This document shows positions 46,210-64,000 of a stretch of 64,000 bases of DNA, one piece after another; within the stretch, counting starts at the first letter, position 1, and each line of letters begins with the position of its first letter. The stretch spans positions 124,001-188,000 of the forward strand of contig NZ_SOEY01000008.1 of assembly GCF_004402535.1 (NCBI RefSeq), in the 5' to 3' direction. The position numbers and the translations under genes are program-made. This DNA is from Cryobacterium glaciale. Its GTDB lineage: Bacteria; Actinomycetota; Actinomycetes; Actinomycetales; Microbacteriaceae. The notes under the pieces are model-generated. The model saw only the letters and a program-made list of their open reading frames with translations, was not told the origin of the DNA and searched no databases.

Positions 46210-47856
46210 CCTCGATCCACCGGTCGAGTTGAGGTGGTGACGGCGCGTTAAACCGAGAATGCCTGTCGGATCAGGAAAAATAGAACTTACTTAGGGTTCA
46301 TTTCGACCGATTCGAGAGGCATCTCGTAGATGCAACTTTTCCATACTTCGAAGCGCTTGTCAGCCACCTTCGATGACACAAATCTCGTGTCGGCCGTAGG
46401 GCTCGTGCCCGCGCTGGCCTTGGCGGTGAAAACAGGTCTTGGGGAGCTCTCTGATGCGCGGCTGAGCCTGCCCGGATACTTCGGCGCGAACGCCGGATTG
46501 AAAGTCACCGCGTTGGTCGCGGGGATGCTTGCCGGGGCCGACTCCATTGATGACATGGCGCTGCTGCGGCACGGCGGCATGAAGAAACTCTTCGTCGGAA
46601 CGTACGCCCCCTCGACGCTGGGGTCCTTCCTCCGCGCGTTCACGTTTGGTCACGTCCGTCAGCTCGACTCCATCGCGTGGCGGTGGCTGGTCAACGTCGC
46701 CGCCCACACCCCGATCGTCGCGGGAATCAACGACTACGCCCTGGTCGACATCGACGACACCATCAAAGAAGTCCACGGCTACCAGAAGCAAGGTTCCGGT
46801 TACGGGTACTCCGGGGTGCGCGGGCTGAACGCTCTGATCGGCATCGTCTCCACACCGACGGCCGCACCGATCATCATCGGATCTCGGCTGCGGAAAGGAT
46901 CGACGGGCTCTCCCCGCGGCGCGGGCAAATTCGTCGGTGACGTACTCGCCACCGTGAAACGTCTCCGCAGCGAAACGGCGACCGGCGTCGTGCTGCTGCG
47001 CGCGGACAGCGCGTTCTATGGCCACGCCGTCGTCGCCGCCGCGAATCGGGCTGGGGCGAAAGTGTCCATCACCGCTCGGATGGACCCCGCCGTCAAGCGC
47101 GCGATCGCCACGATCGGCGCCGACCAGTGGACCACGATTAACTACACCGACGCGATCCGAGACGAGGAAAGCGGCGCCTGGATCTCGTCCGCCGAGGTCG
47201 CCGAAGTCACCTTCACCGCGTTCAGCTCACGCCGGAAAGCGGAACGCATCGAGGGCCGTCTGATCGTGCGGCGGATCCCCGAACTGAACCAGAAAGCGGG
47301 CGAAGGGCAGCCGACCCTCTTCGACACGCACCGCTTTCACGCGTTCTTCACCACCAGCGACCTGGACACCGTCACAGCCGATCAAACCCACCGGCAGCAC
47401 GCGATCATCGAGCAGATCAACGCCGATCTCAAGGACAGCGCGCTGGCCCACCTGCCGTCCGGTGTCTTCACGGCCAACGCGGCCTGGCTCGTGCTGGCCA
47501 CGATCGCGTTCAACCTCTCCCGCGCCATTGGCTCTGTCGCCGGCGCGGAATTGGGCAAAGCGCGAAGCGGCACCATCCGCCGCAAACTCATCAACATCCC
47601 GGCCCTCATATCCACGTCGGCGCGGAAAATCATCCTGCACCTTCCAACGAACTGGCCATGGGAAACCGGGTGGACCGCCGCGTTCGCGGCGGCCTGCGGC
47701 CCGCCGCGAACCATCACCACCTGACCACCAGCCATCCGGCACCGAAGATCACGGAACACCACCGGCAGCAAGGCCGGCAGCTTCGCCACGCCTACCACCA
47801 CAACACCGCCACGAAATTAGCGACGCCACTCAGTCAAGGCCGACCGGTGGATCGAG
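46210..47856 (+). mobile_element. IS1380-family insertion sequence
   Basis: The element is 1647 bp with terminal inverted repeats starting CCTC: cctcgatccaccggtcg (46210-46226) and its complement cgaccggtggatcgagg (47840-47856). It is flanked by CTAAG on both sides. One transposase gene fills it. The termini look intact, so the element is probably recent. Confidence 0.9.
46330..47724 (+). CDS. IS1380-family transposase
   Basis: This 464-residue DDE transposase has VDIDDTIKEVHGYQKQGSGYGYSG (first Asp), LLRADSAFYGHAVVAAANRAG (second Asp), and HAIIEQINADLKDSALAHLPSG (Glu region). It begins MQLFHTSKRLSATFDD, as in IS1380 family members. It is open throughout, so the element may be active. Confidence 0.93.
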   Translation: MQLFHTSKRLSATFDDTNLVSAVGLVPALALAVKTGLGELSDARLSLPGYFGANAGLKVTALVAGMLAGADSIDDMALLRHGGMKKLFVGTYAPSTLGSFLRAFTFGHVRQLDSIAWRWLVNVAAHTPIVAGINDYALVDIDDTIKEVHGYQKQGSGYGYSGVRGLNALIGIVSTPTAAPIIIGSRLRKGSTGSPRGAGKFVGDVLATVKRLRSETATGVVLLRADSAFYGHAVVAAANRAGAKVSITARMDPAVKRAIATIGADQWTTINYTDAIRDEESGAWISSAEVAEVTFTAFSSRRKAERIEGRLIVRRIPELNQKAGEGQPTLFDTHRFHAFFTTSDLDTVTADQTHRQHAIIEQINADLKDSALAHLPSGVFTANAAWLVLATIAFNLSRAIGSVAGAELGKARSGTIRRKLINIPALISTSARKIILHLPTNWPWETGWTAAFAAACGPPRTITT

Positions 47857-47863: not shown

Positions 47864-49316
47864 GCAATACCGTTCAGTTAAGCACTTGAATGGTGATTTC
47901 TGGCTCGTGAGCGGGTTGTGGCCAGTGGGCGTAGTGGAAGCGTTTGGCGGGCCATTTCGAGACCTTGCGTTTGATGATGCGAGGGTTTGATCGTCGTCGG
48001 CGCGCGGGGTTCAGCCTTCGGACGAGGGCGCGGATGGCATGACGCCAGACTGCTTTGGCGTGGTCAAGGTGCGGAGGGGGAAAAATCGCCCTGTGCCACG
48101 GAGCGACGGGCGATGCGGAGTGCGGCAACGAAAGAGACCCGGTCAGGGTCGCGGTGAGCGTGCTGGGCGGCCTCGACCATGAGGGTGCGGATCGCGTAGT
48201 GGCAGCACAGGTGGCCCCAGATTTCCTGCTTGACCAACTCCGGGGATTTGGACCGCATCACCATGCGCGGGCCGCGTTGGTGGGTTTTCAACTCGTCAAA
48301 CACCGTCTCGATCTCCCACCGTTCGGAATACACGGTCGCGAGTTCTTCGGCCGAGGCCTCGGCCGGATCCAGGATCGTGGTCAGCAGCCGGTAGGAGTCA
48401 GGATTTTCGCGTCCATCGTCGATCGTGTAGTCCACGACCCGAACCGCCAACGGTGTCGTCGACTGCCGCCCCGTGCCGGAGGTCGGGATGATCGTTGCCA
48501 GCCAGGACCCGTCAGCGAGGGTCTCCTGGAACCGGGGACGGAGGTTCGTCTTGACCCGCCAGAGCAGATCAGCGCCCGTCGCTGCTGCCTGCGCCCACAA
48601 CCGGAAGCCGTAGAAGCCGCGGTCGGCCAGCACCAGCATGCCCGGCTTGAAGCGGCCGGCCAGCTCCCGGGAGAGTTCAATTTCCGACGTCGTGCACGGG
48701 CCCATCACCGCGTCCAGAACGGCATGCGTTCCGCACTCGGCCAGCGCCACCAGGCGTGCCTGCGGAAAAGCAGATTGCTCCCCACGACTCACCGGTGGCC
48801 GGCCAAAGAACTCCGTATTCACCACGCTGTCGGCCAGATCCAGGATCGTTCCGTCGATGGACATTAGACGCCGCCCAGCCAACCAGGACCCCGGCGTGTC
48901 AGGCCCAGCCAGCGGCCGGGCCACGCGGGCAAACAAGTCCCGCACCGGTTCGAACCCCAGCCGTCGACGCGCCTGAAAGATGGCCGACTTTGACGGCGGC
49001 GCAAACGTCTCGGACCAGCCAGTTGACCACGACAGCCCATCCGTCAGCCGAGCAAACACATCCTCGTAGGACGCTTCGGCATACAGGCCCATCCCGATGG
49101 AGAAATACGCCATCACCCGTGCCGGCAACGCCCGGTTACGCTGCTCAGTCCGCCCCGCGGCCTGAACCACCTCGTCGATGACATCAGCAGGGAACACACG
49201 GGTCAACAAACCGACCGACACCAAATCCGACAACCGACGGTCAGAGACCGGCTTCACCCACCCTGTACGCGCCATAACCACAACGTAACACGAGAATGCT
49301 TAACTGAACGGTATTG
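47864..49316 (-). mobile_element. IS4-family insertion sequence
   Basis: The element is 1453 bp with 20-base perfect terminal inverted repeats, caataccgttcagttaagca at 47864-47883 and its complement at 49297-49316. It is flanked by an imperfect 10-base direct repeat. The transposase runs leftward and carries a frameshift. Confidence 0.9.
47874..49275 (-). pseudogene. IS4-family transposase, frameshifted near the 3' end
   Basis: The first frame (49275 down to 48064, about 403 residues) has the IS4 DDE segments: LMSIDGTILDLADS (D), LVLADRGFYGFRLW (D) and YSERWEIETVFDELKTH (E with the Y-(2)-R-(3)-E-(6)-K signature). It ends RRSVAQGDFSPSAP. The C-terminus continues in another frame as FPPPHLDHAKAVWRHAIRALVRRLNP... 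and RRSNPRIIKRKVSKWP, ending at 47874. The break lies in a T5C5 run (48076-48085) and looks like one extra base. The catalytic residues are all before the break, so activity is uncertain. Confidence 0.85.
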
Positions 49317-50983: not shown

Positions 50984-52111
50984 CTATTGATCGGAGTCGT
51001 CAGCCGACACGATGATGAGCGAGGCAAATAGTCCGGGGACGCCGAAGGTGTGCTTGTTTCGGTCATGTTGGATTCGTCCGGCCACAATGCCTGGGTGGAT
51101 GCCAAGCTTCGACGCTAGGGTTTTCACTTCAGAGTAGGTGTGGACGTTCTCAATGAGCGCGTCAGCTTCGAGCGGTATGAGTGTGCGGGCCGCGAAGTCG
51201 TTTGCTTGCTTCTCTGCCTCGAGTCGGCCGCCGTCTTTGCCGAGGGAGTGCTCGACGAAGACGTCTTTCTTGCCATGAAGGAGGACGTGTGCCAACTCGT
51301 GAAAGAGCGCGAACCAGAAGTGATCGTTTCTTTTGTGGCGCAGGCTTAGCTGAACTAAAGCCTTGCTCGGCGATAGCCATCGGGTTGCGCCGCTTGCGCG
51401 GGCTCCAGTGACTTCGGGGATGAGGACGATGGCAACGCCAGCCCGGGCACACAGTTCCTGCACCTGCGGCCAAAACACGTCTGGCTCGAGGACTGTGAGC
51501 GCGCGCAATTTAGGGAGGATCGCTCGCAGCGCCGCCTTGTCAAACGGTTGAACGGCCAATTTGCTGGCTTCAAGTTCACCGAGGCGGAGCCAGGCTGCAA
51601 CGGCGCCGGCATCGGCGATGAAGGCGGCGGATTGCAGGAACGCCGCCGATGGCTCGGCCCAAGCAGCACGCCACGCGCCAACCGAAGCGACTCCGAAAAA
51701 TTCCAGAATCTCCTGCAGTTGTGTTTCGCGATCGTGATGCGTGGCCTGGATGATCCCGCTCTTGCGGAGGGCTGCAACAGGCATCTGTTTCAACCAGTCG
51801 AGACTTCCGGCAAGGGATTCACGTTCGGATGCTCTGCTTTGCCAATCCCGATACTGCGATTCGAGTGAATTCCACAAGCGGGCGGGTACGCCCGTAGCGC
51901 GTTCCAACTTGATGGCAGTTTCATGCGTGAGGGCAGCTGTGCCTAGAACAATCTGACTGATGTGTTTAGTGGACAACCCGGTGCGCACCGCGAGGTCGCT
52001 TTGCGACAGGGGCAAGGCCTCCAGCGTCTCTCGGAGCGTCTCCCCGGGGCTTGAAATCCGATCGGGGACATAGGGGATCCACGTCGAACCCTGATTGTTG
52101 TGCTCAGCCAT
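50984..52111 (-). CDS. higA: HigA-type antitoxin fused to ImmA/IrrE metallopeptidase
   Basis: This 375-residue protein has an N-terminal XRE helix-turn-helix (LSQSDLAVRTGLSTKHISQIVLG, about residues 34-56) and a C-terminal zinc-peptidase domain with FALFHELAHVLLHGK (HExxH) followed by EAEKQANDFAARTLIP. Such HigA-ImmA fusions act as antitoxins or as stress-cleaved repressors. ATG at 52111 has AAGGAG 6 bases upstream. It follows higB by 23 bases, the reverse-order HigBA layout. Confidence 0.87.
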   Translation of the reverse strand: MAEHNNQGSTWIPYVPDRISSPGETLRETLEALPLSQSDLAVRTGLSTKHISQIVLGTAALTHETAIKLERATGVPARLWNSLESQYRDWQSRASERESLAGSLDWLKQMPVAALRKSGIIQATHHDRETQLQEILEFFGVASVGAWRAAWAEPSAAFLQSAAFIADAGAVAAWLRLGELEASKLAVQPFDKAALRAILPKLRALTVLEPDVFWPQVQELCARAGVAIVLIPEVTGARASGATRWLSPSKALVQLSLRHKRNDHFWFALFHELAHVLLHGKKDVFVEHSLGKDGGRLEAEKQANDFAARTLIPLEADALIENVHTYSEVKTLASKLGIHPGIVAGRIQHDRNKHTFGVPGLFASLIIVSADDSDQ

Positions 52112-52134: not shown

Positions 52135-52470
52135 TCAATGAGTGTCTGTGATCTCGAGAACGCAAACGGTGACTACTTGGCTCAGGTCGATGCCGCCGTC
52201 ACTCAGCCGTGGGATCGGATCATCGGCGATTTCGAAGAGCAGGCGGTAAGGGCCGTCGAGATCAATGGAGAACTGCTCGTCCTTGTCACCTATCAGTTGG
52301 TGGCACCTCGCCTGAGGGAGCGTGTAGAACTCAGCGAGGTTCGAAGCGGCGGAAAGTTGGTCCAGGCGGCGAAGTACCTTGTCTGCCCGCTCAGATCCCA
52401 GTTTTCTGACTCGTTGCGACGCGGTGGTGCACATCTTGGCGAGCTTGGCGTTGCCAAAGCCAACGTTCAC
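52135..52470 (-). CDS. higB: HigB/RelE-family toxin
   Basis: This 111-residue protein starts VNVGFGNAKLAKMCTTASQRVRKLG and has FYTLPQARCHQLIGDKDEQFSIDLDGPYRLLFEI, the RelE/HigB fold with the core basic/aromatic residues. Family members cleave mRNA on the ribosome. GTG at 52470 was chosen because GGAGG lies 7 bases upstream. It is the first gene of the pair with higA and reads away from the ubiquitin-like gene. Confidence 0.83.
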   Translation of the reverse strand: MNVGFGNAKLAKMCTTASQRVRKLGSERADKVLRRLDQLSAASNLAEFYTLPQARCHQLIGDKDEQFSIDLDGPYRLLFEIADDPIPRLSDGGIDLSQVVTVCVLEITDTH

Positions 52471-52488
52471 GCGTTGGCCTCCAAAGAA

Positions 52489-52545
52489 ATGATACACCCA
52501 TCAGGTGTGCTAAACTGTTTGATGCACCAACAAGGTGCATCAAAC
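52489..52545. promoter_or_regulatory. shared operator region between higB and the ubiquitin-like operon
   Basis: Two palindromes have the same shape: acacc-catca-ggtgt (52494-52508) and tgcacc-aacaa-ggtgca (within 52517-52545, arms of 12 bases). Each has a 5-base spacer. Leftward -10 TATCAT (52489-52494) overlaps the first, and a rightward -10-like TAAACT (52511-52516) lies between the two. The HigA-type protein is the likely binder, and it could control both directions. Confidence 0.7.
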
Positions 52546-52610
52546 TATCGGAACCATTTCAGCTGGTCCTCGAACAACGCACCCCACGGTGCAGAAAATA
52601 GGTGCCCATC

Positions 52611-52898
52611 ATGAATAGTACATTGATCGAAGTCGACGGTCCCGGCGCGCGAAAGCCCGAGCGCTTGAACGAGATCGTGGTGAATGGAGAATTGACCGCG
52701 CACGCTGCACACACGATCACCTTCGAGGAGCTCGTGCAGATCGCATTTCCTGAGGCACCGGCGCCGGACGCCACTTTCACGGTGACGTTCAGGAACGCGC
52801 AAGGCCGTCGGCGCGAAGGTGAATTGGTAGATGGCCAGTCGGTCAACATCAAAAAGAAGGGAACGACCTTCGATGTCACTACTACGGGAAAGTCCTAG
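52611..52898 (+). CDS. ubiquitin-like protein (multiubiquitin-domain family, single domain)
   Basis: This 95-residue protein has the beta-grasp pattern of bacterial Multi_ubiq domains: NEIVVNGELTAHAAHTITFEELVQIAFPEAP, FTVTFRNAQG, and GELVDGQSVNIKKKGTTFDVTTTGKS. One copy is present, while family members often have several. The C-terminus is TTTGKS rather than a Gly-Gly end. A start at GTG 52602 would add three residues. The 3' end overlaps the E1-like gene by 26 bases. Confidence 0.75.
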   Translation: MNSTLIEVDGPGARKPERLNEIVVNGELTAHAAHTITFEELVQIAFPEAPAPDATFTVTFRNAQGRRREGELVDGQSVNIKKKGTTFDVTTTGKS

Positions 52899-54048
52899 CC
52901 TCGATCTTCGCAGCCTCATCGACCAGGGCTATGAGATCAGGATCGAGGATAACTACCTCGTTATGGGCCATGTACCGTTCCTTAACGCCTCCGGCGTTGT
53001 TGAATTTGGTGAGCTGATTTCGGAGTTGCTCGTCTCGGGCACCGAGACGCTGCGACCAGATCCACATACCGTGTACTTCACCGGAGTGCCCCACGACACC
53101 CAAGGGCGCCCGTTGGTCAAGATTATCGCCGGAGTCATGTCTCAGGTGCTTACCCCCACGCTTACGGCCGCTACCTTCTTGTCGAGCAAACCGCCGATCG
53201 GCTACTACTCGGATTACCACGCGAAGATGACGCAATACGCGAAGATGATCTGGGGGTGGGCGCAGGCCGTCGATCCCGACGTGACTGCCAGAACCTACCG
53301 ACCTGTCATCGTCAATGAGTCCGATTCCGTTTTCGAATACCTCGACTCCGCTTCAAGCCGAGCCGGCATCACCGAGCTCACCAGGCGTCTCGCCAGGGGG
53401 CCGGTGGCGGTCATCGGTCTCGGTGGAACCGGATCCTATCTGCTGGACTTGCTCGTGAAGACCCCGGTCGAGCAGATCCACCTGTGGGATTCGGACGTCT
53501 TTTCGGCCCATAATGCGTTTCGCGCGCCCGGCGCCGCAAGCGTCATAGATCTCAACGCACGGCCGCTCAAGGTCGACTACTACACCACCATTTACAGCAA
53601 GATGCGACGGGGGATCTTCCCACATCCCCAACGCATCGAGGAGGAAAACGTCTCCGAGCTTGCTGGAATGAGCTTCGTCTTTGTGTGCATGGACGCAGGA
53701 CCATCCAAACGCGTCATCGTCGAGTACCTCATAAGCAAGGGAATCCCATTCATCGACACGGGCATGGGTGTGCAGCGGCAGGGCGACGCGCTCGGCGGCG
53801 TCGTGCGGGTAACGACGAGCGCAGAGGGACAGCACGCGCACGTACTCAACAGGGTGTCGTTCGCCGACGAGCAGCACGACGAGTACGACCGCAACATCCA
53901 GATCGCCGAGTTGAACTCCTTGAACGCGACGATGGCCGTCATCAAGTGGAAAAAGCTGATGGGCTTCTACCTTGATCACGAAAAAGAACTGCACTCGACT
54001 TACACCGTGAGCGGGAACTTCTTCGCGAACTCGGAGAACAGCGAATGA
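52873..54048 (+). CDS. ThiF/E1-like adenylyltransferase with N-terminal DUF6791-like domain
   Basis: This 391-residue protein has an N-terminal domain of about 150 residues (HTVYFTGVPHDTQGRPLVKIIAG) and a C-terminal ThiF/MoeB/E1 Rossmann domain with GPVAVIGLGGTGSYLLDLL (about 182), IHLWDSDVFSAHNAFRAPGA, and SFVFVCMDAGPSKRVIVEYLISKGIPFID. Such proteins adenylate the C-terminus of a ubiquitin-like partner. The only Cys is at about residue 272 in the Rossmann strand, so no normal catalytic Cys is seen. Start ATG 52873. Confidence 0.8.
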   Translation: MSLLRESPSLDLRSLIDQGYEIRIEDNYLVMGHVPFLNASGVVEFGELISELLVSGTETLRPDPHTVYFTGVPHDTQGRPLVKIIAGVMSQVLTPTLTAATFLSSKPPIGYYSDYHAKMTQYAKMIWGWAQAVDPDVTARTYRPVIVNESDSVFEYLDSASSRAGITELTRRLARGPVAVIGLGGTGSYLLDLLVKTPVEQIHLWDSDVFSAHNAFRAPGAASVIDLNARPLKVDYYTTIYSKMRRGIFPHPQRIEEENVSELAGMSFVFVCMDAGPSKRVIVEYLISKGIPFIDTGMGVQRQGDALGGVVRVTTSAEGQHAHVLNRVSFADEQHDEYDRNIQIAELNSLNATMAVIKWKKLMGFYLDHEKELHSTYTVSGNFFANSENSE

Positions 54049-54464
54049 AGGTGTCGACCGTGCGAACGCAATTCGTGGAATACATCCCGTCCACCCGTGA
54101 CGAAGGGGTCTTATACGTATCGACGAAATTTAGAACAGCCGTTCACAACTGCGCGTGCGGATGCGGCAACAAAGTTGTCACACCGATCGACCCAGCTCGT
54201 TGGCACCTGTCATGGGACGGAATCGATGCCACATTGTCGCCCTCAGTCGGGAATTGGGAGTTCCCCTGCCGATCCCACTATTTGATCCAAAGGGGCGACG
54301 TGAGGTGGTCGACTCAGTGGACCGATAAGCAGATCAAAGCCGGCGCGCAGCGAGATCGCGAAGCGCGGATTGACCAGCTGGCAGCGCCAGGCCCATTCAA
54401 GCGGACAACTTTCGTGGCTCGCCTCTTTGCGCATCTTCGGCGGGTCCATCGCCGAATGCAGTAG
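54045..54464 (+). CDS. DUF6527 family protein (metal-binding cysteine cluster)
   Basis: This 139-residue protein has a CACGCGNKVVTPIDPARWHLSWDGIDATLSPSVGNWEFPCRSHYLI block, which matches DUF6527; the Cys and His residues suggest zinc binding. It overlaps the E1-like gene (ATGA). DUF6527 proteins are often found beside multiubiquitin and ThiF genes, so it is part of the same system. Its biochemical role is unknown. Confidence 0.75.
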   Translation: MKVSTVRTQFVEYIPSTRDEGVLYVSTKFRTAVHNCACGCGNKVVTPIDPARWHLSWDGIDATLSPSVGNWEFPCRSHYLIQRGDVRWSTQWTDKQIKAGAQRDREARIDQLAAPGPFKRTTFVARLFAHLRRVHRRMQ

Positions 54465-54558
54465 TGCTGAGACGGACGCTTGTCTGGGCCATGTCAGTGG
54501 CTACTGCAACCCTGATATGGGAGGACCGAATGACAACTCAAGAATAGGGCGGAAAATC

Positions 54559-54783
54559 ATGGCAACTGGCGACATCTCGACATACAACGAAGACGGAACC
54601 TGGAAAAGCGCGGTTGAGGGCAGCTCTCGAGCGGCGCATGTCGGTGGCACCAAAGCCGAGCAGCAAGCGATCGGCAAGGATTTGGCTAAGGGGCGTCGTG
54701 TGGAGCACACCGTACGCAATCTCAATGGTCAGATCGCGCAGAAGAACTCCTACGGGAACGATGCATACCCGCCAGCCGGTTAG
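54559..54783 (+). CDS. DUF2188-like small protein
   Basis: This 74-residue protein reads MATGDISTYNEDGTWKSAVEGSSRAAHVGGTKAEQQAIGKDLAKGRRVEHTVRNLNGQIAQKNSYGNDAYPPAG. The pattern (W followed by a G-K-x-x-A-x-x-x-A block and HxxxG-x-I-x-x-x-x-S-Y-G) is DUF2188. It follows the ubiquitin-like operon in the same direction with a 94-base gap and is probably part of it. ATG at 54559. Confidence 0.65.
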   Translation: MATGDISTYNEDGTWKSAVEGSSRAAHVGGTKAEQQAIGKDLAKGRRVEHTVRNLNGQIAQKNSYGNDAYPPAG

Positions 54784-55379: not shown

Positions 55380-56135
55380 TTAGGCATGCTTGATTCCATG
55401 GAGGGGGCAGACGTGAGAATCGAACGCTGGTTCGGGATGGCCCTGCAAATACTCTACGTTCGGTCCCCAATCCGTCCGAAGCACGCGACCGAAAGGAACA
55501 ATCCCAACTTTTGCAATTCCAGCCAGCTTCAGGCTCGCTGCAATTGATTGGGCATGGCCGCCCGTCACCCACGAGTCATCGATGACAACAGCCCGCGTAA
55601 GGCCAGCCACAGCGGCAGCGTCGACGGCCCAATCTTCGAGGCGCAATTGGCGTCTCCCATTCCGCGTACGATCCGTGTCACCGACGTAGGTCGGCATGAG
55701 CCTGGGAATGCTTGGAGTGAACATCGCCAGTATCGCCTCGATCGGATGTGGACCCTTGCGTCCTCCCGTTGACGGGATACTAACTATGGCGACTGTCGAG
55801 GTTTCCCAGCCAGGCATTAGGCATTGAGCGTAATTGGCGAAGGCGAGACGCAGCATGAGGCGTAGCCGCTCGGCGGCCACGTCAGCGACTGCCTGCTGAG
55901 CCTCATCCTTGTACGAGGCCAGGTCGGCATAGGCTTGCCCGCCCATGGGAGCCCAACTCAGCGGGGCGACGAAATCAGCAAGAGGCAACCCTGAACCATT
56001 GTGAATGTTGCATGCGTAACACAGCTCGTAGTTCGGATCCTTGGGGACCGTGCAGACGGGGCAGATGCCAGGTTGGCGACTTGGCGGATTTCTGTATATG
56101 CGACGCAGGGATGCGTCCTTAGGCTGTTCCTGCAT
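55380..56135 (-). CDS. ComF-like phosphoribosyltransferase with zinc-ribbon-like Cys motif
   Basis: This 251-residue protein has a Cys cluster near the start (GICPVCTVPKDPNYELCYACNIHNGSG) and a type I phosphoribosyltransferase core with the PRPP loop AVVIDDSWVTGGHAQSIAASLKLAG. Another CPLHG lies close to the C-terminus. It follows the DprA-like gene by 9 bases and is presumably expressed with it. The substrate is unknown. ComF proteins act in DNA uptake, but no other competence genes are seen here. Confidence 0.75.
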   Translation of the reverse strand: MQEQPKDASLRRIYRNPPSRQPGICPVCTVPKDPNYELCYACNIHNGSGLPLADFVAPLSWAPMGGQAYADLASYKDEAQQAVADVAAERLRLMLRLAFANYAQCLMPGWETSTVAIVSIPSTGGRKGPHPIEAILAMFTPSIPRLMPTYVGDTDRTRNGRRQLRLEDWAVDAAAVAGLTRAVVIDDSWVTGGHAQSIAASLKLAGIAKVGIVPFGRVLRTDWGPNVEYLQGHPEPAFDSHVCPLHGIKHA

Positions 56136-56144
56136 CGTGGGCGC

Positions 56145-57059
56145 TTAGGTCGCGAAGAGAGACCCTGCAGCCCAGCTCGCCGCCCCTGCATCACGTCGGT
56201 CGTGGATGCGATGGACAGCTTCTTCTGCCTCCGCCGCATTTGAAACGACCACGACATCGAGTCCGTCATCCACGAGCGCCTTGCCCCACGTTGTTTGAAG
56301 AAAGACAGCTCGGCTGATTATGAGTGGCCGCCCATGTCGCACCGCAGCGCGGGCTTGAATCCGCGTCCCGGACTTCTCACTCGCCTCGGCGATCACCGTC
56401 AGGGACGCGAAGCCGCTCATCACAACGTTGCGCATCGGGAACGTCTTGGGAGATGCGCTGCCATCAGGGTGGAACTGAGAAAGGAGTAGGTGATTTGCAG
56501 CGATTTCATCTTGTAAGGCAGCGTGCTCTTTCGGGTAGCTGCGATTGAGGCCCGTCCCAATCACGCCGATTGTCCGGTTCCCCTCCCTGAGGGACGCGGT
56601 CATAGCCGCAACATCAATACCATAGGCGAGCCCAGACACGATGGGGACTTGGTGTTGCGCGAGCCTTCTTGCGAGATCAGTCACGAACCTTACGGCACCT
56701 TCGGAAGGCTTCCGCGTTCCGACTATGGCCACTGATCGCAGGTCAGCGATCTCCCTGTGACCCTTCCAGTAAACAACGGGAGGGAAATCGTGGATCGTAC
56801 GAAGCTGTTCAGGGTAGCCATCCGCAAGGTACGTATCGGCGTGTATACCAACGGCTTCAAACTCAGCGATCGCTCTTCGCGCATCGTGCAGTGCGCGCTT
56901 ATATTCCTCGTCGATGAGGTAGCCAGCAAGATGCTCTCTCAGCGCTGCGTCAGGACCGCCCGCCCGCTCAATGAGAGCTCGGATCTCACGCCACTTCAGC
57001 GAACCATCCCGCAGGAGGGCATAGAGCGCAACATTCTCCACGCTCATCCGACTATCCAT
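56145..57059 (-). CDS. DprA/Smf-like Rossmann-fold protein
   Basis: This 304-residue protein has SVAIVGTRKPSEGAVRFVTDLARRLAQHQVPIVSGLAYGIDVAAMTASLREGNRTIGVIGTGLNRSYPKEHAALQDEIAANHLLLSQF, the DprA core, and FPMRNVVMSGFASLTVIAEASEKSGT. It has an N-terminal helical part but no clear C-terminal winged helix. True DprA loads RecA onto incoming DNA; here the pairing with a phosphoribosyltransferase suggests a specialised, perhaps defence-related, role. The -10-like TAACCT lies 6 bases before the ATG, so it is probably leaderless. Confidence 0.75.
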   Translation of the reverse strand: MDSRMSVENVALYALLRDGSLKWREIRALIERAGGPDAALREHLAGYLIDEEYKRALHDARRAIAEFEAVGIHADTYLADGYPEQLRTIHDFPPVVYWKGHREIADLRSVAIVGTRKPSEGAVRFVTDLARRLAQHQVPIVSGLAYGIDVAAMTASLREGNRTIGVIGTGLNRSYPKEHAALQDEIAANHLLLSQFHPDGSASPKTFPMRNVVMSGFASLTVIAEASEKSGTRIQARAAVRHGRPLIISRAVFLQTTWGKALVDDGLDVVVVSNAAEAEEAVHRIHDRRDAGAASWAAGSLFAT

Positions 57060-57686: not shown

Positions 57687-57799
57687 TGTTCCCCCCGTTG
57701 ATTCGATCTCAGAGTACCGTCTACTCGGGCACGGACATGCTCGATGTCATTCGTCGCCAATAGGCTGAACCCAACACGTAATTGGGGAGCTCCAAAAAC

Positions 57800-59779
57800 A
57801 TGGCCGAAAACAACAACGGCGCTTTTATCTGGTCAATCGCGAATCTGCTTCGCGGCACCTACAAGCAATCGGACTACGGCAAGATCGTACTGCCGTTCAC
57901 CATTCTCAGCCGCCTGGACGCGGTGCTGGCGCCGACCAAAGACGCCGTCCTCGCCGAGTACACCAAATACAAAGACGGCAGCATTCCAGTCGAGAAGCTC
58001 CTCCCGGCCGTCTCCAAACATGACTTCTACAACACCAGCTTGTACACGGTCGAGAAGCTCAGCGGCGACCCCGCCAACGTGCGCGCGAACCTGCTCAACT
58101 ACCTCGACGGTTTCTCGGCCAATGTGCGTGACATATTCGATCGCTACGACTTTCCGGCCCAGATCGCGCGCCTCGACGAGAATGACCTGCTGTATCTACT
58201 CATTCAGAAGTTCGCTGCCGTCGACCTGCACCCCGACCGGGTCAGCAACACCGAGATGGGCCTCATCTTCGAAGAGCTCATCCGCCGCTTCGCAGAAGCC
58301 TCCAACGAAACCGCCGGAGAACACTTCACCCCACGCGAGGTCGTCCGCCTCATGGTCAGCCTGCTCTTCACCGAGCACCCCGACGAAAACCCCGAGAAGT
58401 CCCTCTCCGTTCCCGGCGCCGTGCGAACCGTCTACGACCCCACCGCCGGCACCGGCGGCATGCTCAGCGTCGCCGACGACTACGTACGCGAACACTTCCC
58501 CCAAGCCTCCCTCACCCTCGTCGGCCAGGAACTCAACGCCGAATCCTTCGCCATCGCCAAGGCCGACATGGTCATCAAAGGCCAGGCCATCGAGAACATC
58601 ATCTGGGGCGACACCCTCACCAACGACGGACACCTCGAAAAAACCTTCGACTACGGCCTGTCGAACCCTCCGTTCGGCGTCGAATGGAAGAAACAGCAGA
58701 CGTTCGTGCAGAACGAATACGACCAACGCGGCTACGACGGCCGCTTCGGCCCCGGCCTGCCCCGCGTCTCCGACGGGTCCCTCCTCTTCCTCATGCACCT
58801 CGTGAAGAAAATGCGCCCGAAAGCTCAGGGAGGCGGTCGCGTCGGGATTGTGCTGAACGGCAGCCCACTCTTCACCGGCGGCGCCGGCTCCGGCGAGAGC
58901 AACATCCGCAAGTACGTCATCGAGAACGACCTCCTCGACGCCATCATCGCCATGCCCACCGACCTTTTCTACAACACCGGCATCGCCACCTACATCTGGA
59001 TCCTCGACAACGACAAGCCCACCAGCCGCAAGGGCAAAGTGCAACTCATCGACGCCACCGACCAGTGGATCAAAATGCGTAAGAACCTCGGCTCCAAACG
59101 CCGTCTCATCAGCCCCGAACAAATCGAACACATCGTCCAGCTCTACGGCAACAACAGCGACGGCACCGAACAAACGGATGCTGACGCCTCGAAAATCTTC
59201 GCCACCGCCGACTTCGGCTACACCACCATCACCGTCGAACGTCCTCAACAGTTCAATTGGGCCGTCACCCCGGAGCGCCTGCAGCTCGCCTTGTCGCCGA
59301 AGAATCTCACCGCCCTCGCGGACCAGATCAAGACGGCACTGCTCGATCTCAGCAACGCCGCCAAGACCACAACCGATGCCGCCGTGTTCACCACGCGAGT
59401 CAAGAAGGTACTCACTTCCGCCGACGTCGCCCTAAGTGCACCCCTGCTGAAGGTCCTCATTGCCGGGCTCGCCGAGCGAGATGAAACCGCACCGGTTGTC
59501 ACGGACAGCAAAGGGAAACCCGTCGCCGACACCACCCTGCGCGACACGGAGAACGTGCCGCTCACGGAGGACATCAACGCTTACATCCAGCGCGAGATTG
59601 CCCCGCACGTCCAGCACTTCTGGGTTGATCGCACCAAGGACAGGACCGGTTACGAGATCCCCTTCACCCGACACTTCTACAAATACATGCCACCGCGCTC
59701 GCTCGAGGAGATCGACGCCGATCTCAACAAGCTGGTCCAGGAGATCACTGTCCTGCTTGGTGAGGTAGAACGCGCATGA
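57800..59779 (+). CDS. hsdM: type I restriction-modification DNA methyltransferase subunit HsdM
   Basis: This 659-residue N6-adenine methyltransferase has an N-terminal HsdM_N part (FIWSIANLLRGTYKQSDYGKIVLPFTILSRLDAVL), the SAM motif DPTAGTGGMLS (about 213), and the catalytic SNPPFGVEW (about 288). ATG at 57800 is preceded by GGGGAGC; a TTG start 18 bases upstream is possible. The stop overlaps the hsdS start (ATGA). Methylation protects the host sites read by HsdS. Confidence 0.95.
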   Translation: MAENNNGAFIWSIANLLRGTYKQSDYGKIVLPFTILSRLDAVLAPTKDAVLAEYTKYKDGSIPVEKLLPAVSKHDFYNTSLYTVEKLSGDPANVRANLLNYLDGFSANVRDIFDRYDFPAQIARLDENDLLYLLIQKFAAVDLHPDRVSNTEMGLIFEELIRRFAEASNETAGEHFTPREVVRLMVSLLFTEHPDENPEKSLSVPGAVRTVYDPTAGTGGMLSVADDYVREHFPQASLTLVGQELNAESFAIAKADMVIKGQAIENIIWGDTLTNDGHLEKTFDYGLSNPPFGVEWKKQQTFVQNEYDQRGYDGRFGPGLPRVSDGSLLFLMHLVKKMRPKAQGGGRVGIVLNGSPLFTGGAGSGESNIRKYVIENDLLDAIIAMPTDLFYNTGIATYIWILDNDKPTSRKGKVQLIDATDQWIKMRKNLGSKRRLISPEQIEHIVQLYGNNSDGTEQTDADASKIFATADFGYTTITVERPQQFNWAVTPERLQLALSPKNLTALADQIKTALLDLSNAAKTTTDAAVFTTRVKKVLTSADVALSAPLLKVLIAGLAERDETAPVVTDSKGKPVADTTLRDTENVPLTEDINAYIQREIAPHVQHFWVDRTKDRTGYEIPFTRHFYKYMPPRSLEEIDADLNKLVQEITVLLGEVERA

Positions 59780-61083
59780 GCGGGTCATTGAAATACTCAA
59801 AATACAAACCGTCCGGGACGCAATGGCTCGGAGAGGTCCCGACCCATTGGGCTGTAACGCGTCTTGGTCGTGGTTTCCAACTCATGCGACGCCCACCACG
59901 CAAGGAAGACGGCAATCTGACTGCCTACCGCGACGGAGAGGTGACTCTCCGTTCAAATCGACGGTTAGACGGTTACACGGAGGCTGACAAAGAAATCGGT
60001 TATCAAGGCATCCGTGTCGGGGATCTCGTTATTCACGCTATGGATGCGTTTGCGGGCGCCATCGGCGTATCGGACAGCGATGGTAAGTCATCTCCTGTTT
60101 ACCTTGCTTGCCAGCCGCTGCCTGGCCACGATGCCCGCTACTTCGCGAGAGTCATGCGTCACATCGCCCTTTCGGGATATATCACGTCCTTAGGAAAGGG
60201 CGTTCGAGAGCGTTCGACTGACTTTCGTTGGAGCGACGCACGGAACGTACTGGTTCCCGTCCCGCCGATTGATGAACAGCAGAGGATTCTGGCTTTCCTG
60301 GATCGGGAGACTGGCCAGATTGACGCGCTGATTACCAAGCAGGAGCAGTTGGTCGTGGCGCTGACTGAGCGCCGCCAAGCAGTGATCACCCAAGCGATAA
60401 CCCGTGGCCTTGATCCTCTGATTCAGCTCAGGGACTCCGCGACGAAATGGTGGGGAAACATTCCCGTGCACTGGTCGATTACCGGACTCAAACATCTTGT
60501 GTCAATCCCGATCACGGATGGGCCACATGAGACTCCAACGTTCTTGGCTAATGGAGTGGAATTCATCTCTGCCTCAGCGATTTCCGCTGGAACCGTCAAC
60601 TTCGACAAGCGCCGGGGCTTTATCTCTGCAGAAGACCACGCACTCTACTCGATGAAATACTCACCTCGGCTCTATGACATTTACATGATCAAGTCGGGGG
60701 CGACCACCGGGAATTCGGCGATTTTAACCGAGGACAGGGACTTCAGTATTTGGTCGCCGTTGGCCGTGCTGCGGAGTGGCCACCGCACTAACCCATTTTT
60801 CATGCATTTCGCCATTCAGTCACAGGCATTTCAGCGAGCGCTGACGCTTGCATGGACGTTTGGCACTCAACAGAACATCGGAATGAAATCAATCGGCGAC
60901 CTGCAAATCCCGACCCCTCCGAGACCAGAGCAGGACGAAATTGTTCTCTATCTTCAAGAACACGTTTCGATTATCGATGCGCTCATAGCCAAAGCACATC
61001 AGGTCGTTGAGGTCCTGCAGGAGCGTCGTCAGGCACTTATCAGTGCTGCAGTCACCGGGAAGATTGATGTGAGGGGGCTCTGA
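59776..61083 (+). CDS. hsdS: type I restriction-modification specificity subunit HsdS
   Basis: This 435-residue protein has two target recognition domains. The first starts SGTQWLGEVPTHWAVTRLGRGF, with the central helix VPPIDEQQRILAFLDRETGQIDALITKQEQLVVALTERRQAVI; the second starts TKWWGNIPVHWSITGLKHLV and ends with PPRPEQDEIVLYLQEHVSIIDALIAKAHQVVEVLQERRQALISAAVTGKIDV. The two domains set a bipartite recognition site. It overlaps hsdM by four bases and hsdR by one. Confidence 0.95.
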   Translation: MSGSLKYSKYKPSGTQWLGEVPTHWAVTRLGRGFQLMRRPPRKEDGNLTAYRDGEVTLRSNRRLDGYTEADKEIGYQGIRVGDLVIHAMDAFAGAIGVSDSDGKSSPVYLACQPLPGHDARYFARVMRHIALSGYITSLGKGVRERSTDFRWSDARNVLVPVPPIDEQQRILAFLDRETGQIDALITKQEQLVVALTERRQAVITQAITRGLDPLIQLRDSATKWWGNIPVHWSITGLKHLVSIPITDGPHETPTFLANGVEFISASAISAGTVNFDKRRGFISAEDHALYSMKYSPRLYDIYMIKSGATTGNSAILTEDRDFSIWSPLAVLRSGHRTNPFFMHFAIQSQAFQRALTLAWTFGTQQNIGMKSIGDLQIPTPPRPEQDEIVLYLQEHVSIIDALIAKAHQVVEVLQERRQALISAAVTGKIDVRGL

Positions 61084-64000
61084 TGGGGCAGCACAATGAG
61101 ACACCGTTCGAAGAGGAAATCGCTCTCTACCTGCAATCCCGGGGGTGGCTGTATTCCCCCACCAGCACGGGTTACGACAAGGAACGCGCCCTGTTCCCAG
61201 AGGATGTGTTCGGCTGGTTGGCCGACACGCAGCCCGAGGCGTTGGCGAAGGTTCTGAAGCCGGGTGATGCGGCATCCGTTCAAGAGGAGGCGCGGAACGC
61301 GATTCTCGACCGGCTGGCCAAATCACTCGGTGCGTCCTTCGACAGTGTCGCTGGGGTGCAGGGCGGGACTCTGTCGGTGCTCAGACGTGGGTTCAAGTAC
61401 ACGCCGGCATCGTTCCGGATGGCGCAGTTTCGGCCTGCTGACGGGTTGAACCCCACGACCACGGCTGACTACGGCAAGATGCGCCTGCGGGTGATGCGTC
61501 AGGTGTTCTATTCCACGTCGAACCAGAAAAGCATCGACCTGGTCTTGTTCGTCAACGGGCTGCCGGTGGCGACGCTGGAGTTGAAGACGGACTTCACGCA
61601 GAGCGTGCAGGATGCGATCTCGCAGTACCGCACCGACCGCAATCCCAAGGGTGAACCGTTGCTTTCCTTCGGCCACCGCGCGCTCGTGCACTTCGCCGTC
61701 TCCAACAGCGAAGTGTTCATGACCACGCATCTGCAGGGCCCGGACACGTTCTTCCTGCCGTTCAACAAGGGCAATGACGGGCGGGCCGGCAACCCGGTCA
61801 ACCCCGACGGGTCGGAGACCGCCTACTTGTGGGAGCGCGTGCTGCAGAAAGACGCGTGGCTCGGTATTCTCGGGCGGTTCATGCACCTCCAGGTGGAGAA
61901 GAGCATTGACCCCGTGACGGGCGAGGTTGAGAAGAAGGAAACCCTGCTGTTTCCACGTTTTCAGCAGTGGGAATCGGTGACGAAACTCATCGAGACAGCC
62001 CGTGAAGAAGGCCCGGGGCACCGGTACCTGATTCAGCATTCGGCAGGGTCGGGCAAGACGAACTCGATCGCCTGGACCGCGCATCAGCTGTCGACGCTGC
62101 ACCGCACCGACGGCAGCAAGGTTTTCAACTCCGTGATCGTCGTCACGGACCGCACCGTTCTGGACACCCAGTTGCAGGATGCGATCAAGCAGATCGATTC
62201 CAAGACCGGCGTGGTCATCGGCATCGATAGTAAGACCGGCGGGTCGAAGTCGAGCCGGTTGGCTGAGGCGCTCACGCAGGGTGCGCAGATCATCGTCGTG
62301 ACCATTCAGACGTTCCCGTTCGCGATGGCCGAGCTGGCCAAGCTCGACGGGTCCCTTGCGGGGCGCAGCTTTGCGATCATCGCCGACGAGGCGCACTCCT
62401 CGCAGACGGGAACCACGTCAAACAAGGTGAAGTCGGTGCTCAACGCCGACGAGCTCGCGGATCTCGCCGACGGCGGTGAGGTCGACATGGAGGCACTGCT
62501 CGCGGTCGACATGGAGTCCCGCGCGAATGCGACGAACATCTCCTACTTTGCGTACACGGCCACACCCAAGGCGAAGACCCTGGAACTCTTCGGTCGCTCC
62601 GTCGACGGAGGCCTGCCGAAACCGTTCCATCTCTACACAATGCAGCAAGCCATTGAGGAGGGCTTCATCCTCGACGTGCTGCGCAACTACACGCCGTACA
62701 AGGTGGCGTTCAAGCTCGCGCACAACGGTCAAGAGTATGACTCCGATGGGCCGTTGGTGGAGAAGACCCAGGCGGTCAAGGAGCTGATGCAGTGGGTTCG
62801 GCTGCATGACTTCAACATCACCCAGAAGGTCGCGCTCATCATCGAGCACTACCGCGAAAACGTGGCCTGGCGCCTGAACGGCAAAGCCAAAGCGATGGTC
62901 GTCACCGGATCACGCCGCGAAGTCGTGCGCTACAAGCTCGCCTTCGACGCCTACCTCAAGCGCACCGGACACACGGATGTTCGCGCTCTCGTCGCCTTCT
63001 CCGGCGAGGTTCTCGACGAGGACCTCAGCCCAGACAAGTTCACGGAAACGAGCATGAACACCGGCCTCAAAGGCCGCTCCCTACCGGAAGCGTTCAAGAC
63101 CGACAGCTTCCAAGTGATGCTCGTGGCCAACAAGTACCAGACCGGGTTCGATCAGCCGCTGCTCGTGGCCATGTACGTCGACAAGAAGCTCTCCGGTGTC
63201 ACGGCGGTGCAGACCCTGTCTCGGCTGAACCGGATGGCCAAGGGCAAAGACACCACGTATGTGCTCGACTTCGTGAACGACCCCGAGATCATTCGGGAGT
63301 CGTTCGAGCCCTACTTCAAGGACGCGCGCCTGTCGGCCGTGTCGGACCCAAACATCGTGCACGACATCAAGGGCAAGCTCGATGCCCTGCACCTCTACGA
63401 GGAGCACGAAGTGGATGCGGCGGCCTCTGTAGAGGTTTTCAAGAAGGGTAACAACGCTCTCGCCGCCGCTGTTGCGCCGGGCAAGGACAGGTTCAACAAG
63501 CGGTATGACGCGGCGGTTGAGGCCGACGACCATGAAGAGGTCGACCGGTTGGAGCTGTTCCGCAGGGACCTGACCTCGTTCATTAATGCCTACGACTTTC
63601 TGTCGCAGATCATCAACTTTGAAGACGTGTCGATTGAGAAGCACGCAATTTACTACCGGGCTCTGGCCCGCGTGATCAGTGAGAAAACACGGCGTAGCGC
63701 CATCGACCTGACCGGTGTGGCGATGATCGGTTATGGCATCAAAAAGCATGACCAGCAGAACATCAGTCTGACCGGTGATGAGGAGCTGGACCCGCTCATC
63801 GGTTCCGGGTCAAAGAGTGCCGTCGACCCAGTTCTAGCGCGTCTGCTCGAGGCCGTGAACCAGCTCAACCAGCTCTTCGACGGCGACGGGCTCACCTCCG
63901 CCGACATGATGGGTTTCTACACCCATGTGAAGGGCAAGGTCGCCGAAAACGAGAAGGTCACCACCCAGATCAAGGTCAATAGCGAGCAGCAGTTCCTGGC
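61083..64000 (+). CDS. hsdR: type I restriction endonuclease subunit HsdR (partial, runs off the window)
   Basis: About 972 codons are present without a stop, so the 3' end is cut by the window edge. The start ATG at 61083 overlaps the hsdS stop (TGATG). The N-terminal nuclease segment is NQKSIDLVLFVNGLPVATLELKTD (D...ExK type), the Walker A is HSAGSGKTNSIAW (about 319), and the DEAH-like box is IIADEAHSSQTG (about 435), followed by other SF2 helicase motifs. HsdR translocates DNA and cuts at a distance when HsdM has not methylated it. Confidence 0.95.
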   Translation, partial: MGQHNETPFEEEIALYLQSRGWLYSPTSTGYDKERALFPEDVFGWLADTQPEALAKVLKPGDAASVQEEARNAILDRLAKSLGASFDSVAGVQGGTLSVLRRGFKYTPASFRMAQFRPADGLNPTTTADYGKMRLRVMRQVFYSTSNQKSIDLVLFVNGLPVATLELKTDFTQSVQDAISQYRTDRNPKGEPLLSFGHRALVHFAVSNSEVFMTTHLQGPDTFFLPFNKGNDGRAGNPVNPDGSETAYLWERVLQKDAWLGILGRFMHLQVEKSIDPVTGEVEKKETLLFPRFQQWESVTKLIETAREEGPGHRYLIQHSAGSGKTNSIAWTAHQLSTLHRTDGSKVFNSVIVVTDRTVLDTQLQDAIKQIDSKTGVVIGIDSKTGGSKSSRLAEALTQGAQIIVVTIQTFPFAMAELAKLDGSLAGRSFAIIADEAHSSQTGTTSNKVKSVLNADELADLADGGEVDMEALLAVDMESRANATNISYFAYTATPKAKTLELFGRSVDGGLPKPFHLYTMQQAIEEGFILDVLRNYTPYKVAFKLAHNGQEYDSDGPLVEKTQAVKELMQWVRLHDFNITQKVALIIEHYRENVAWRLNGKAKAMVVTGSRREVVRYKLAFDAYLKRTGHTDVRALVAFSGEVLDEDLSPDKFTETSMNTGLKGRSLPEAFKTDSFQVMLVANKYQTGFDQPLLVAMYVDKKLSGVTAVQTLSRLNRMAKGKDTTYVLDFVNDPEIIRESFEPYFKDARLSAVSDPNIVHDIKGKLDALHLYEEHEVDAAASVEVFKKGNNALAAAVAPGKDRFNKRYDAAVEADDHEEVDRLELFRRDLTSFINAYDFLSQIINFEDVSIEKHAIYYRALARVISEKTRRSAIDLTGVAMIGYGIKKHDQQNISLTGDEELDPLIGSGSKSAVDPVLARLLEAVNQLNQLFDGDGLTSADMMGFYTHVKGKVAENEKVTTQIKVNSEQQFL

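Follow-up and report, generated by a model that had tools for sequence, protein, structure and literature searches.

In the textbook account, ubiquitin-type tagging requires a tag that ends in glycine and cysteine thioesters on both the activating enzyme (E1) and the conjugating enzyme (E2). Here we analyze an operon from Cryobacterium glaciale, located in a 64,000-nucleotide stretch of contig NZ_SOEY01000008.1 (positions 124,001 to 188,000; hereafter the window), in which a ubiquitin-like protein (Ubl) ending in serine is encoded beside an E1-like protein with an N-terminal DUF6791 domain and a ThiF domain, a DUF6527 protein and a DUF2188 protein. This kind of operon is not new. It was predicted in 2006 as operon type 6e, 'polyUbl', which includes a subset where a 'distinct domain' replaces JAB (Iyer, Burroughs and Aravind 2006, PMC1779556). 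The sections of that paper covered here assign this domain X a possible JAB-like role and no other function, propose that a small protein Y acts as a Zn finger and in target recognition, and make no mention of a C-terminal serine. We infer that domain X is DUF6791 and that Y is DUF6527.

Several other described systems are relevant. Bil has been placed in phage defense (PMC12687455), and it combines a JAB protein (BilC) with an E2 whose catalytic residue is Cys138, an E1 that carries Cys417 and a Ubl that is trimmed to a reactive glycine (PMC11354881). Plasmid pSYSX of Synechocystis carries a multiubiquitin-E2-E1-metal-protein cassette with a DUF955 neighbor (PMC4963859). Bub operons occur with CapW, or with CapH plus CapP, a helix-turn-helix (HTH) and peptidase pair, in 219 of 544 cases (EMBO J 2026, PMC13373217). 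Finally, MccB is a ThiF-like enzyme of a kind known from peptide antibiotics, which forms no thioester and acts on a C-terminus other than glycine (PMC12250964). Because such enzymes exist, cysteine-free chemistry is feasible.

From its sequence, we assign the window operon, with moderate confidence, to a non-JAB (DUF6791) subclass of type 6e, as a Bub-like protein-conjugation module that would transfer its Ser-ended Ubl without the use of cysteine.

The activating enzyme and its substrate

Genome contigs were scanned for related loci, and the best 80 of at least 509 encoding stretches were compared with the window. All 80 have the Ubl gene directly upstream of the E1 gene and share the type 6e trait of a Ubl gene together with an E1 whose N-terminal domain is not JAB. 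DUF6527 is encoded in 78 loci. In 77 of them it lies at -52 to +21 nucleotides (nt) from the end of the E1 gene, and L063 has it about 2 kb downstream. Of the remaining two, L051 yielded no such gene and the contig of L006 stops near the E1 end. An earlier note on this DNA had described the four genes as one tightly coupled unit. By open reading frame (ORF) calls and Pfam, all four are present and placed as it claimed, and its spacings are exact (a 26-nt overlap, a 4-nt overlap and then a 94-nt gap). As a unit, Ubl-E1-DUF6527 recurs in 77 of the 80 relatives, but DUF2188 in only seven; the conserved unit is a three-gene core, with DUF2188 separate.

We aligned 201 E1-like proteins, comprising the window, the 80 loci and 120 database proteins (two are under 370 amino acids, aa). 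No cysteine column is conserved across this alignment, and a catalytic cysteine of the canonical ubiquitin or Bil E1 type was accordingly not found among these proteins; ten of them, all 376-419 aa long, contain no cysteine at all. The single cysteine of the window protein is residue 272, as previously noted. This residue is ruled out as the catalytic cysteine by its column (A 83, C 68, T 35, S 15), in which 133 of the 201 have A, T or S. Cysteine is commonest in column 74, where it is present in 152 proteins; the window and 30 others have histidine there, which rules out an essential role in the class. The residues expected to support adenylation are retained: the four glycines of GxGGxG, D206, D208, N214, R217 and K233 are invariant, and D274 is kept in 190 of 201. 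Three of these, R217, K233 and D274, fit the positions of MoeB Arg73, Lys86 and Asp130 (named in PMC12355090), as judged solely by the range of the MoeB match. Adenylation without a thioester relay, which the earlier note had proposed, is the best sequence-level reading of this pattern.

The ThiF fold and the retained adenylation residues would also suit a sulfur-carrier or cofactor route, in which the Ubl adenylate is converted to a thiocarboxylate as for ThiS and MoaD. We regard this route as remote, given that the Ubl ends in serine rather than glycine and that no conserved E1 cysteine is available for a persulfide. Moreover, the 25 upstream families listed (of 43) include no rhodanese or cofactor family, and the distribution is sporadic (DUF6791 in 1 of 60 relatives, which is the window's own genome).

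The E1-like protein falls in NCBIfam family PRK06153.1-4, named only 'hypothetical protein' (481.6 bits, cut-off 352). Its E1 part is homologous to the E1 part of 11 BubCD-like (JAB-E1) proteins (hhalign Prob 99.2, E 3e-19). Within the DUF6791 domain, H65, P73, S104 and Y156 are invariant in all 201 proteins. At E<=5, 42 DUF6791 members matched 18 Pfam families, none of them an E2 family. An hhalign comparison of DUF6791 with the JAB profile showed nothing, which rules out DUF6791 as a JAB domain by profile.

The Ubl of the window is of the single-domain Multi_ubiq type and ends TTTGKS, as had been noted. We examined 92 operons for the Ubl end and mapped 91 of them (the 80 loci, the window, L094-L096 and L117-L123); L114 was left out because a scripted search found no Ubl there. 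The last residue is serine in 91 of 91, a count that includes one duplicate (L122 and L023 come from one genome) and some pairs that look near-identical, for example L065/L066. Among the 80 loci, the residue before the final serine is K in 53, R in 22, Q in 4 and L in 1. The third-last residue is not fixed (D 43, N 14, T 8, G 7, others 8), so a hidden glycine cleavage site is not conserved. The Ubl probably works with serine as its last residue.

The final serine is encoded where the Ubl and E1 genes overlap, and we considered whether it is a by-product of this overlap. The overlap phase is common to 90 of the 91 mapped operons (26 nt in 82, shifted by one codon in 8) and is kept across phyla. 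Among 72 loci read at the 26-nt position, 67 start E1 with ATG within the Ubl gene; the others have TTG (2) or GTG, CCG and ACG (1 each). The last Ubl codon is TCG in 51, TCA in 12, TCT in 12 and TCC in 5 of the 80 loci, followed by TAG in 55, TAA in 20 and TGA in 5; this tally includes L067, which has no overlap. The residue encoded by the E1-frame codon that spans the Ubl boundary changes among R, H, L and P; in the Ubl frame, serine is constant. Because the changes in the overlap are synonymous in the Ubl frame and replace residues in the E1 frame, the Ubl frame is the selected one. In addition, E1 residues 7 to 9 are variable among the 201 proteins, and the Ubl of L067 still ends TDKS. The codon patterns, the variable E1 residues and L067 rule out a by-product of gene overlap, with the caveat that AGY serine codons are absent among the 80 loci and that the case without overlap is a single one.

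The invariant last residue also speaks for MccB-type chemistry, which is the main rival to conjugation. In MccB/EnfB-like chemistry, the E1 would modify the Ubl's own terminal serine (by a nucleotide, cyclization or amidation), DUF6791 would serve as a clamp, and the product would be the modified Ubl. Relatives of MccB combine an N-terminal recognition domain with a ThiF domain and act on a C-terminal Asn or other residues, MccB itself without a thioester (PMC12250964), and our E1 profile matches MccB weakly in the PDB (E 0.0018). The best PDB match of that profile is, however, BubCD (9ea5, E 8.6e-9), and the partner here is a folded Multi_ubiq domain common to a known conjugation pathway. An MccB-like precursor, a short peptide with a C-terminal Asn, was not found at the locus, where the substrate is a 95-aa Ubl ending in serine. 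Nor do the 25 upstream families listed (of 43) include a transporter or immunity family (the downstream genes were not scanned). We therefore consider modification of the Ubl itself unlikely.

Relatives of the Ubl with several domains (ORFs of 83-274 aa) raise a different alternative, a non-covalent scaffold in which Ubl filaments or complexes form and the E1 acts as a nucleotide-dependent switch. A paper by Gong from 2025 reportedly deals with oligomerization of bacterial Ubls. It may already discuss the DUF6791 class, given that PDB entry 9cd2 is a Ubl ending TDKS. Relatives of the 9cd2 Ubl occur on 30 plasmid records; in the ten listed, every match adjoins a ThiF gene, and two of these records, H63 and H64, are the same plasmids that gave DUF6791 hits H1 and H2. 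The window Ubl has one domain, its C-terminal residue is invariant in the class and the adenylation site of its partner is retained, all of which make a scaffold distinctly unlikely.

A second operon class, DUF6527 and the absence of E2 and JAB

Plasmid searches revealed a second operon class that encodes a Ubl, Prok-E2_E, a JAB-ThiF protein and DUF6527, although not all four are annotated at every locus. The operon of L103, a Citrobacter freundii plasmid, matches the PDB chains of Citrobacter BubA (residues 155-229), BubB and BubCD and ends with DUF6527. Because of these matches, we identify the second class as Bub, with a JAB part that fits BubC; gene order suggests that its DUF6527 gene is 'BubE'. 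The PDB construct of BubA stops at Gly229, just before the E2. Two of six standalone Bub-class Ubls end TTTEG, and the other four end in NPG plus two or three residues. A Fic family gene adjoins some operons of this class (L108, L112, L113).

Seven more actinobacterial Multi_ubiq loci (L085-L091) have no strong match to a DUF6791-type E1. Four of them have glycine at or near the Ubl end (L086 NPGIRR, L087 NLG, L089 RG, L090 FG). The E1 of L087, the only one of the seven scanned by Pfam, scores 21.5 bits for JAB, under the 25-bit cut-off.

The earlier note saw no separate E2 or JAB gene, and wider searches agree. Prok-E2_E (PF14462) has 0 matches in the window's genome, and neither the JAB nor the Prok-E2_E profile matches in the 80 related loci; JAB elsewhere in the genome was not searched for. 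As a control, the profiles recovered the 11 JAB-E1 and 6 Ubl-E2 proteins from which they had been built. These results bear on the possibility that a full Bub pathway operates here, with an E2 and a peptidase supplied in trans from elsewhere in the genome. The Ubl, E1 and DUF6527 that the two classes have in common would fit such an arrangement, but the two negative results, within the limit just given for JAB, make it very improbable.

DUF6527 is shared by both classes, and a protein search found 1640 relatives. Among the 199 DUF6527 proteins of the DUF6791 operon class, H34, C36, C40 and W53 never vary; S67 and H78 are each present in 198, the exception being a gap. The metal signature of the window protein is C36-x3-C40-x34-C75-x2-H78. 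In the Bub class (eight of nine proteins; L106 was left out), C36, W53, P66, S67 and H78 are complete, and C40 and C75 are each lost in three. C36, W53, S67 and H78 are thus kept in both classes. Because C36, S67 and H78 are retained where presumed zinc ligands are lost, they form a candidate catalytic set, and DUF6527 is a candidate hydrolase or deconjugase, or a zinc adaptor. In the phylum of genome G352, 20 DUF6527 places were found in 19 of 398 genomes: 8 are by a DUF6791 E1, 4 by a JAB E1 and 8 by neither according to the profiles used, and in 6 of these last 8 the DUF6527 profile itself gave no match. Caulobacter vibrioides gave the sole DUF6527 match among 14 control genomes.

DUF2188 is ruled out as a core gene, since it is present in 7 of the 80 loci (phmmer E<=1e-3), all near the operon. 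All seven hits lie between -1.3 and +1.8 kb from the start of the E1 match, a range that covers 27% of the bases and, having been chosen post hoc, is only indicative. Only L014 has the gene downstream, as in the window. We regard DUF2188 as an accessory, probably optional partner outside the conserved core. On a Rhizobium phaseoli plasmid (L105:3477-3704), a DUF2188 gene separates an HTH/ImmA pair from a Bub-class operon and stands directly upstream of the Ubl gene.

Neighborhood and distribution

The coordinates of the operon and its divergent neighbors are collected in Table 1. The earlier note had begun the feature at 52489, where no gene starts; this position lies inside the divergent promoter and touches the first codons of the HigB-like gene.

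Table 1. Features of the operon and its divergent neighbors, in positions of the window
Feature	Position	Strand	Details
HTH (HigA-like)-M78/IrrE peptidase fusion	50984-52111	-	Pfam M78 E 6.9e-10, HTH_3 E 1.9e-8
HigB/RelE-like toxin gene	52138-52497	-	Pfam PF05015 E 3.1e-7; divergent from Ubl gene
Inverted repeat, candidate operator	52517-52545	.	perfect 12 bp, GTTTGATGCACC-n5-GGTGCATCAAAC, in divergent promoter
Ubl gene	52611-52898	+	ATG start, 95 aa, Multi_ubiq PF14452 E 2.8e-12, C-terminus ...FDVTTTGKS
Ubl/E1 overlap	52873-52898	+	26 nt
E1-like gene	52873-54048	+	ATG start, 391 aa, DUF6791-ThiF
DUF6791 part of E1-like protein	52873-53370	+	residues 11-159, Pfam PF20590 E 9.3e-45
ThiF/E1 adenylation domain	53374-54048	+	from residue 168; Pfam ThiF residues 168-369 E 2.9e-13
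DUF6527 gene	54045-54464	+	139 aa, Pfam PF20137 E 7.3e-23
DUF2188 gene	54559-54783	+	ATG start, 74 aa, E 2.1e-13; PADLOC PDC-S16

The HTH-M78 protein matches PADLOC PD-Lambda-2_B (E 2.2e-34) and exceeds the cut-off of NCBIfam HigA, both scores being from a version two codons shorter, and is likely a repressor or regulator. A Micrococcus luteus plasmid (L096) has the same divergent layout, with an M78 match under the Pfam cut-off. Across the 74 loci from which upstream neighbors were sent to Pfam (145 of 156; 71 downstream ones were not included), an M78 domain is present in 36 of the 145. Of the 80 loci, 46 have an ORF with an M78-type motif in the 3.5 kb upstream and 1 has such an ORF in an equal length downstream; 67 loci reach the full 3.5 kb upstream and 66 downstream. 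Linkage of Multi_ubiq genes to M78 is already known: that 70% of PF14452 proteins stand beside DUF955 (M78-type) loci has been in print since 2016 (PMC4963859). Inverted repeats with CATCACCC...GGGTGATG halves are present in the divergent promoters of L029, L034 and L043, all of which are M78-linked. These repeats are candidate operators and differ from the window's repeat.

Further genes of the window belong to defense-related families. On the minus strand, 55380-57059 encodes a DprA-like protein that matches ShosA (PADLOC E 1.5e-63), followed by a 251-aa protein that is phosphoribosyltransferase-like by eye and has no Pfam match; the two are possibly a ShosTA toxin-antitoxin pair. Type I restriction-modification genes occupy 57782-63998 (+), with HsdM (PADLOC MTase_I E 1.1e-267), a specificity subunit (Methylase_S E 2.4e-10) and an HsdR-like ORF (HSDR_N E 5.4e-16) that runs off the window. 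On the other side are transposase genes at 46330-47724 (+; DDE_Tnp_1_4 E 1.1e-27) and 48064-49281 (-; Nterm_IS4 E 2.7e-30), near which the G+C content drops from about 64% to about 59%. The transposases and the G+C drop likely mark the edge of an acquired defense island, and the neighborhood as a whole suggests a use of the operon in defense or stress response.

The operon is an accessory system. At least 6290 E1 relatives were found at E<=0.001 among 8000 candidates scored, and the 120 listed carry DUF6791 plus ThiF. The record titles of the 80 loci name Actinobacteria, Proteobacteria classes, Bacteroidetes, Verrucomicrobia, Acidobacteria, a Nostoc, Nitrospira, Chloroflexota, Thaumarchaeota (two records) and others. 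Multi_ubiq is present in 11 of 296 genomes of the window's phylum; in the phylum to which G352 belongs, 7 of 299 genomes have DUF6791. By tblastn, 120 plasmid records matched, 109 of them over at least 80% of the protein, and no phage record did. Viral contigs gave one long match (L114, residues 35-379, 37% identity) and two partial ones. The Ubl is fast-evolving; a protein search found five entries, one of which is apparently the window's own.

Mechanism and relation to described systems

In the conjugation model that we prefer, the E1 would adenylate the carboxylate of the Ubl's C-terminal serine. DUF6791 would either bind the Ubl or the target as a clamp, or pass the acyl group on as a transferase, for which the invariant Ser104 or His65 are candidate residues. 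The Ubl would then reach its target proteins either directly or by way of an oxyester, and at no point through a thioester. Since translation would already give the Ubl its mature end, no trimming protease would be required. DUF6527, through Cys36, Ser67 and His78, might remove or edit conjugates, or else recruit targets; DUF2188 would be an optional partner. The divergent HTH-M78/toxin pair would repress the operon until a stress such as DNA damage. We hold one fully specified form of this model only tentatively, as a possibility more than an expectation: that an entire branch of bacterial ubiquitin-like systems works with Ser-ended modifiers and without cysteines. In it, a Cys-less E1 would adenylate the terminal serine, this serine would either join the chemistry (as an ester, a lactone or in an acyl shift) or form the link to the target, and DUF6791 would make the transfer directly, with no separate E2 and no trimming protease.

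Several points weigh against the conjugation model. D274 is replaced in 11 of the 201 E1-like proteins. When the window E1 is searched as a single sequence, the PDB entry that ranks first is 8ide, a chain of a threonylcarbamoyladenine synthase (E 3.1e-5), and the match to BubCD is weaker (E 0.0083). DUF6791 has no PDB sequence match at E<=10, that is, no detectable solved relative. The earlier note had also suggested an E2-like function in an N-terminal domain without cysteine; the domain is indeed free of cysteine in the window, but its likeness to an E2 amounts to a 31-column hhalign match with BubB (P 0.037), which is not significant. The serine end is not exclusive to operons with a DUF6791-type E1, since L085 and L088 (GDDNS) also have it, and the Ubl of L091 ends in Ala with no glycine nearby; these three loci counter a clean Ser/Gly split of the classes. 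C36, S67 and H78 of DUF6527 could instead be structural or zinc-linked, and DUF6527 as a simple substitute for JAB is weakened by its presence next to JAB-type E1s as well. With regard to function, the covered part of the Bub study states that phage protection is not demonstrated for Bub operons (PMC13373217), and M78 neighbors have been read as a stabilizing toxin-antitoxin pair, not as a regulator (PMC4963859).

The operon class appears to have kept activation but to have lost the E2, the trimming peptidase, the cysteines and the terminal glycine. Should it conjugate proteins, it would be, to our knowledge, the smallest ubiquitin-like toolkit, and thioesters would be optional. Its chemistry should differ from textbook ubiquitin, with a Ser-ended tag and an activating enzyme without a conserved cysteine, and the invariant terminal serine offers a one-residue test of mechanism. 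We found no description of an invariant serine end combined with Cys-free, E2-free and JAB-free chemistry in the literature covered, outside of which stand Gong 2025 and Ye 2026.

Compared with known systems, the operon resembles Bil (BilABCD) in having a Ubl and an E1 in a short operon, but none of the JAB, the E2 cysteine, the E1 cysteine and the trimmed glycine end of Bil was found in the window operon. Like MccB, PaaA and EnfB, its E1 joins a ThiF domain to an N-terminal domain, which in those enzymes serves recognition, and MccB likewise works without a thioester on a non-Gly C-terminus; unlike their short-peptide substrates, the substrate here is a folded Ubl, with DUF6527 adjoining. The 'domain X' subset of type 6e, as described in the sections covered, agrees in its Ubl of one to three domains and its E1 with a non-JAB N-terminus, and possibly in its small metal-binding 'Y', whose signature C-x3-C-x(35-38)-H-x2-C differs from the C-x2-H order of DUF6527 here. 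With Bub, the operon shares a Multi_ubiq Ubl, a homologous E1, DUF6527, HTH/M78 neighbors and, in one case, DUF2188; it differs by lacking BubB and JAB, by having DUF6791 and by a Ubl that ends in serine instead of glycine. Bub itself reportedly uses oxyesters, which is background and not a result of this analysis. The window operon is a sister system to the Bub pathway that lacks the E2 and JAB of Bub.

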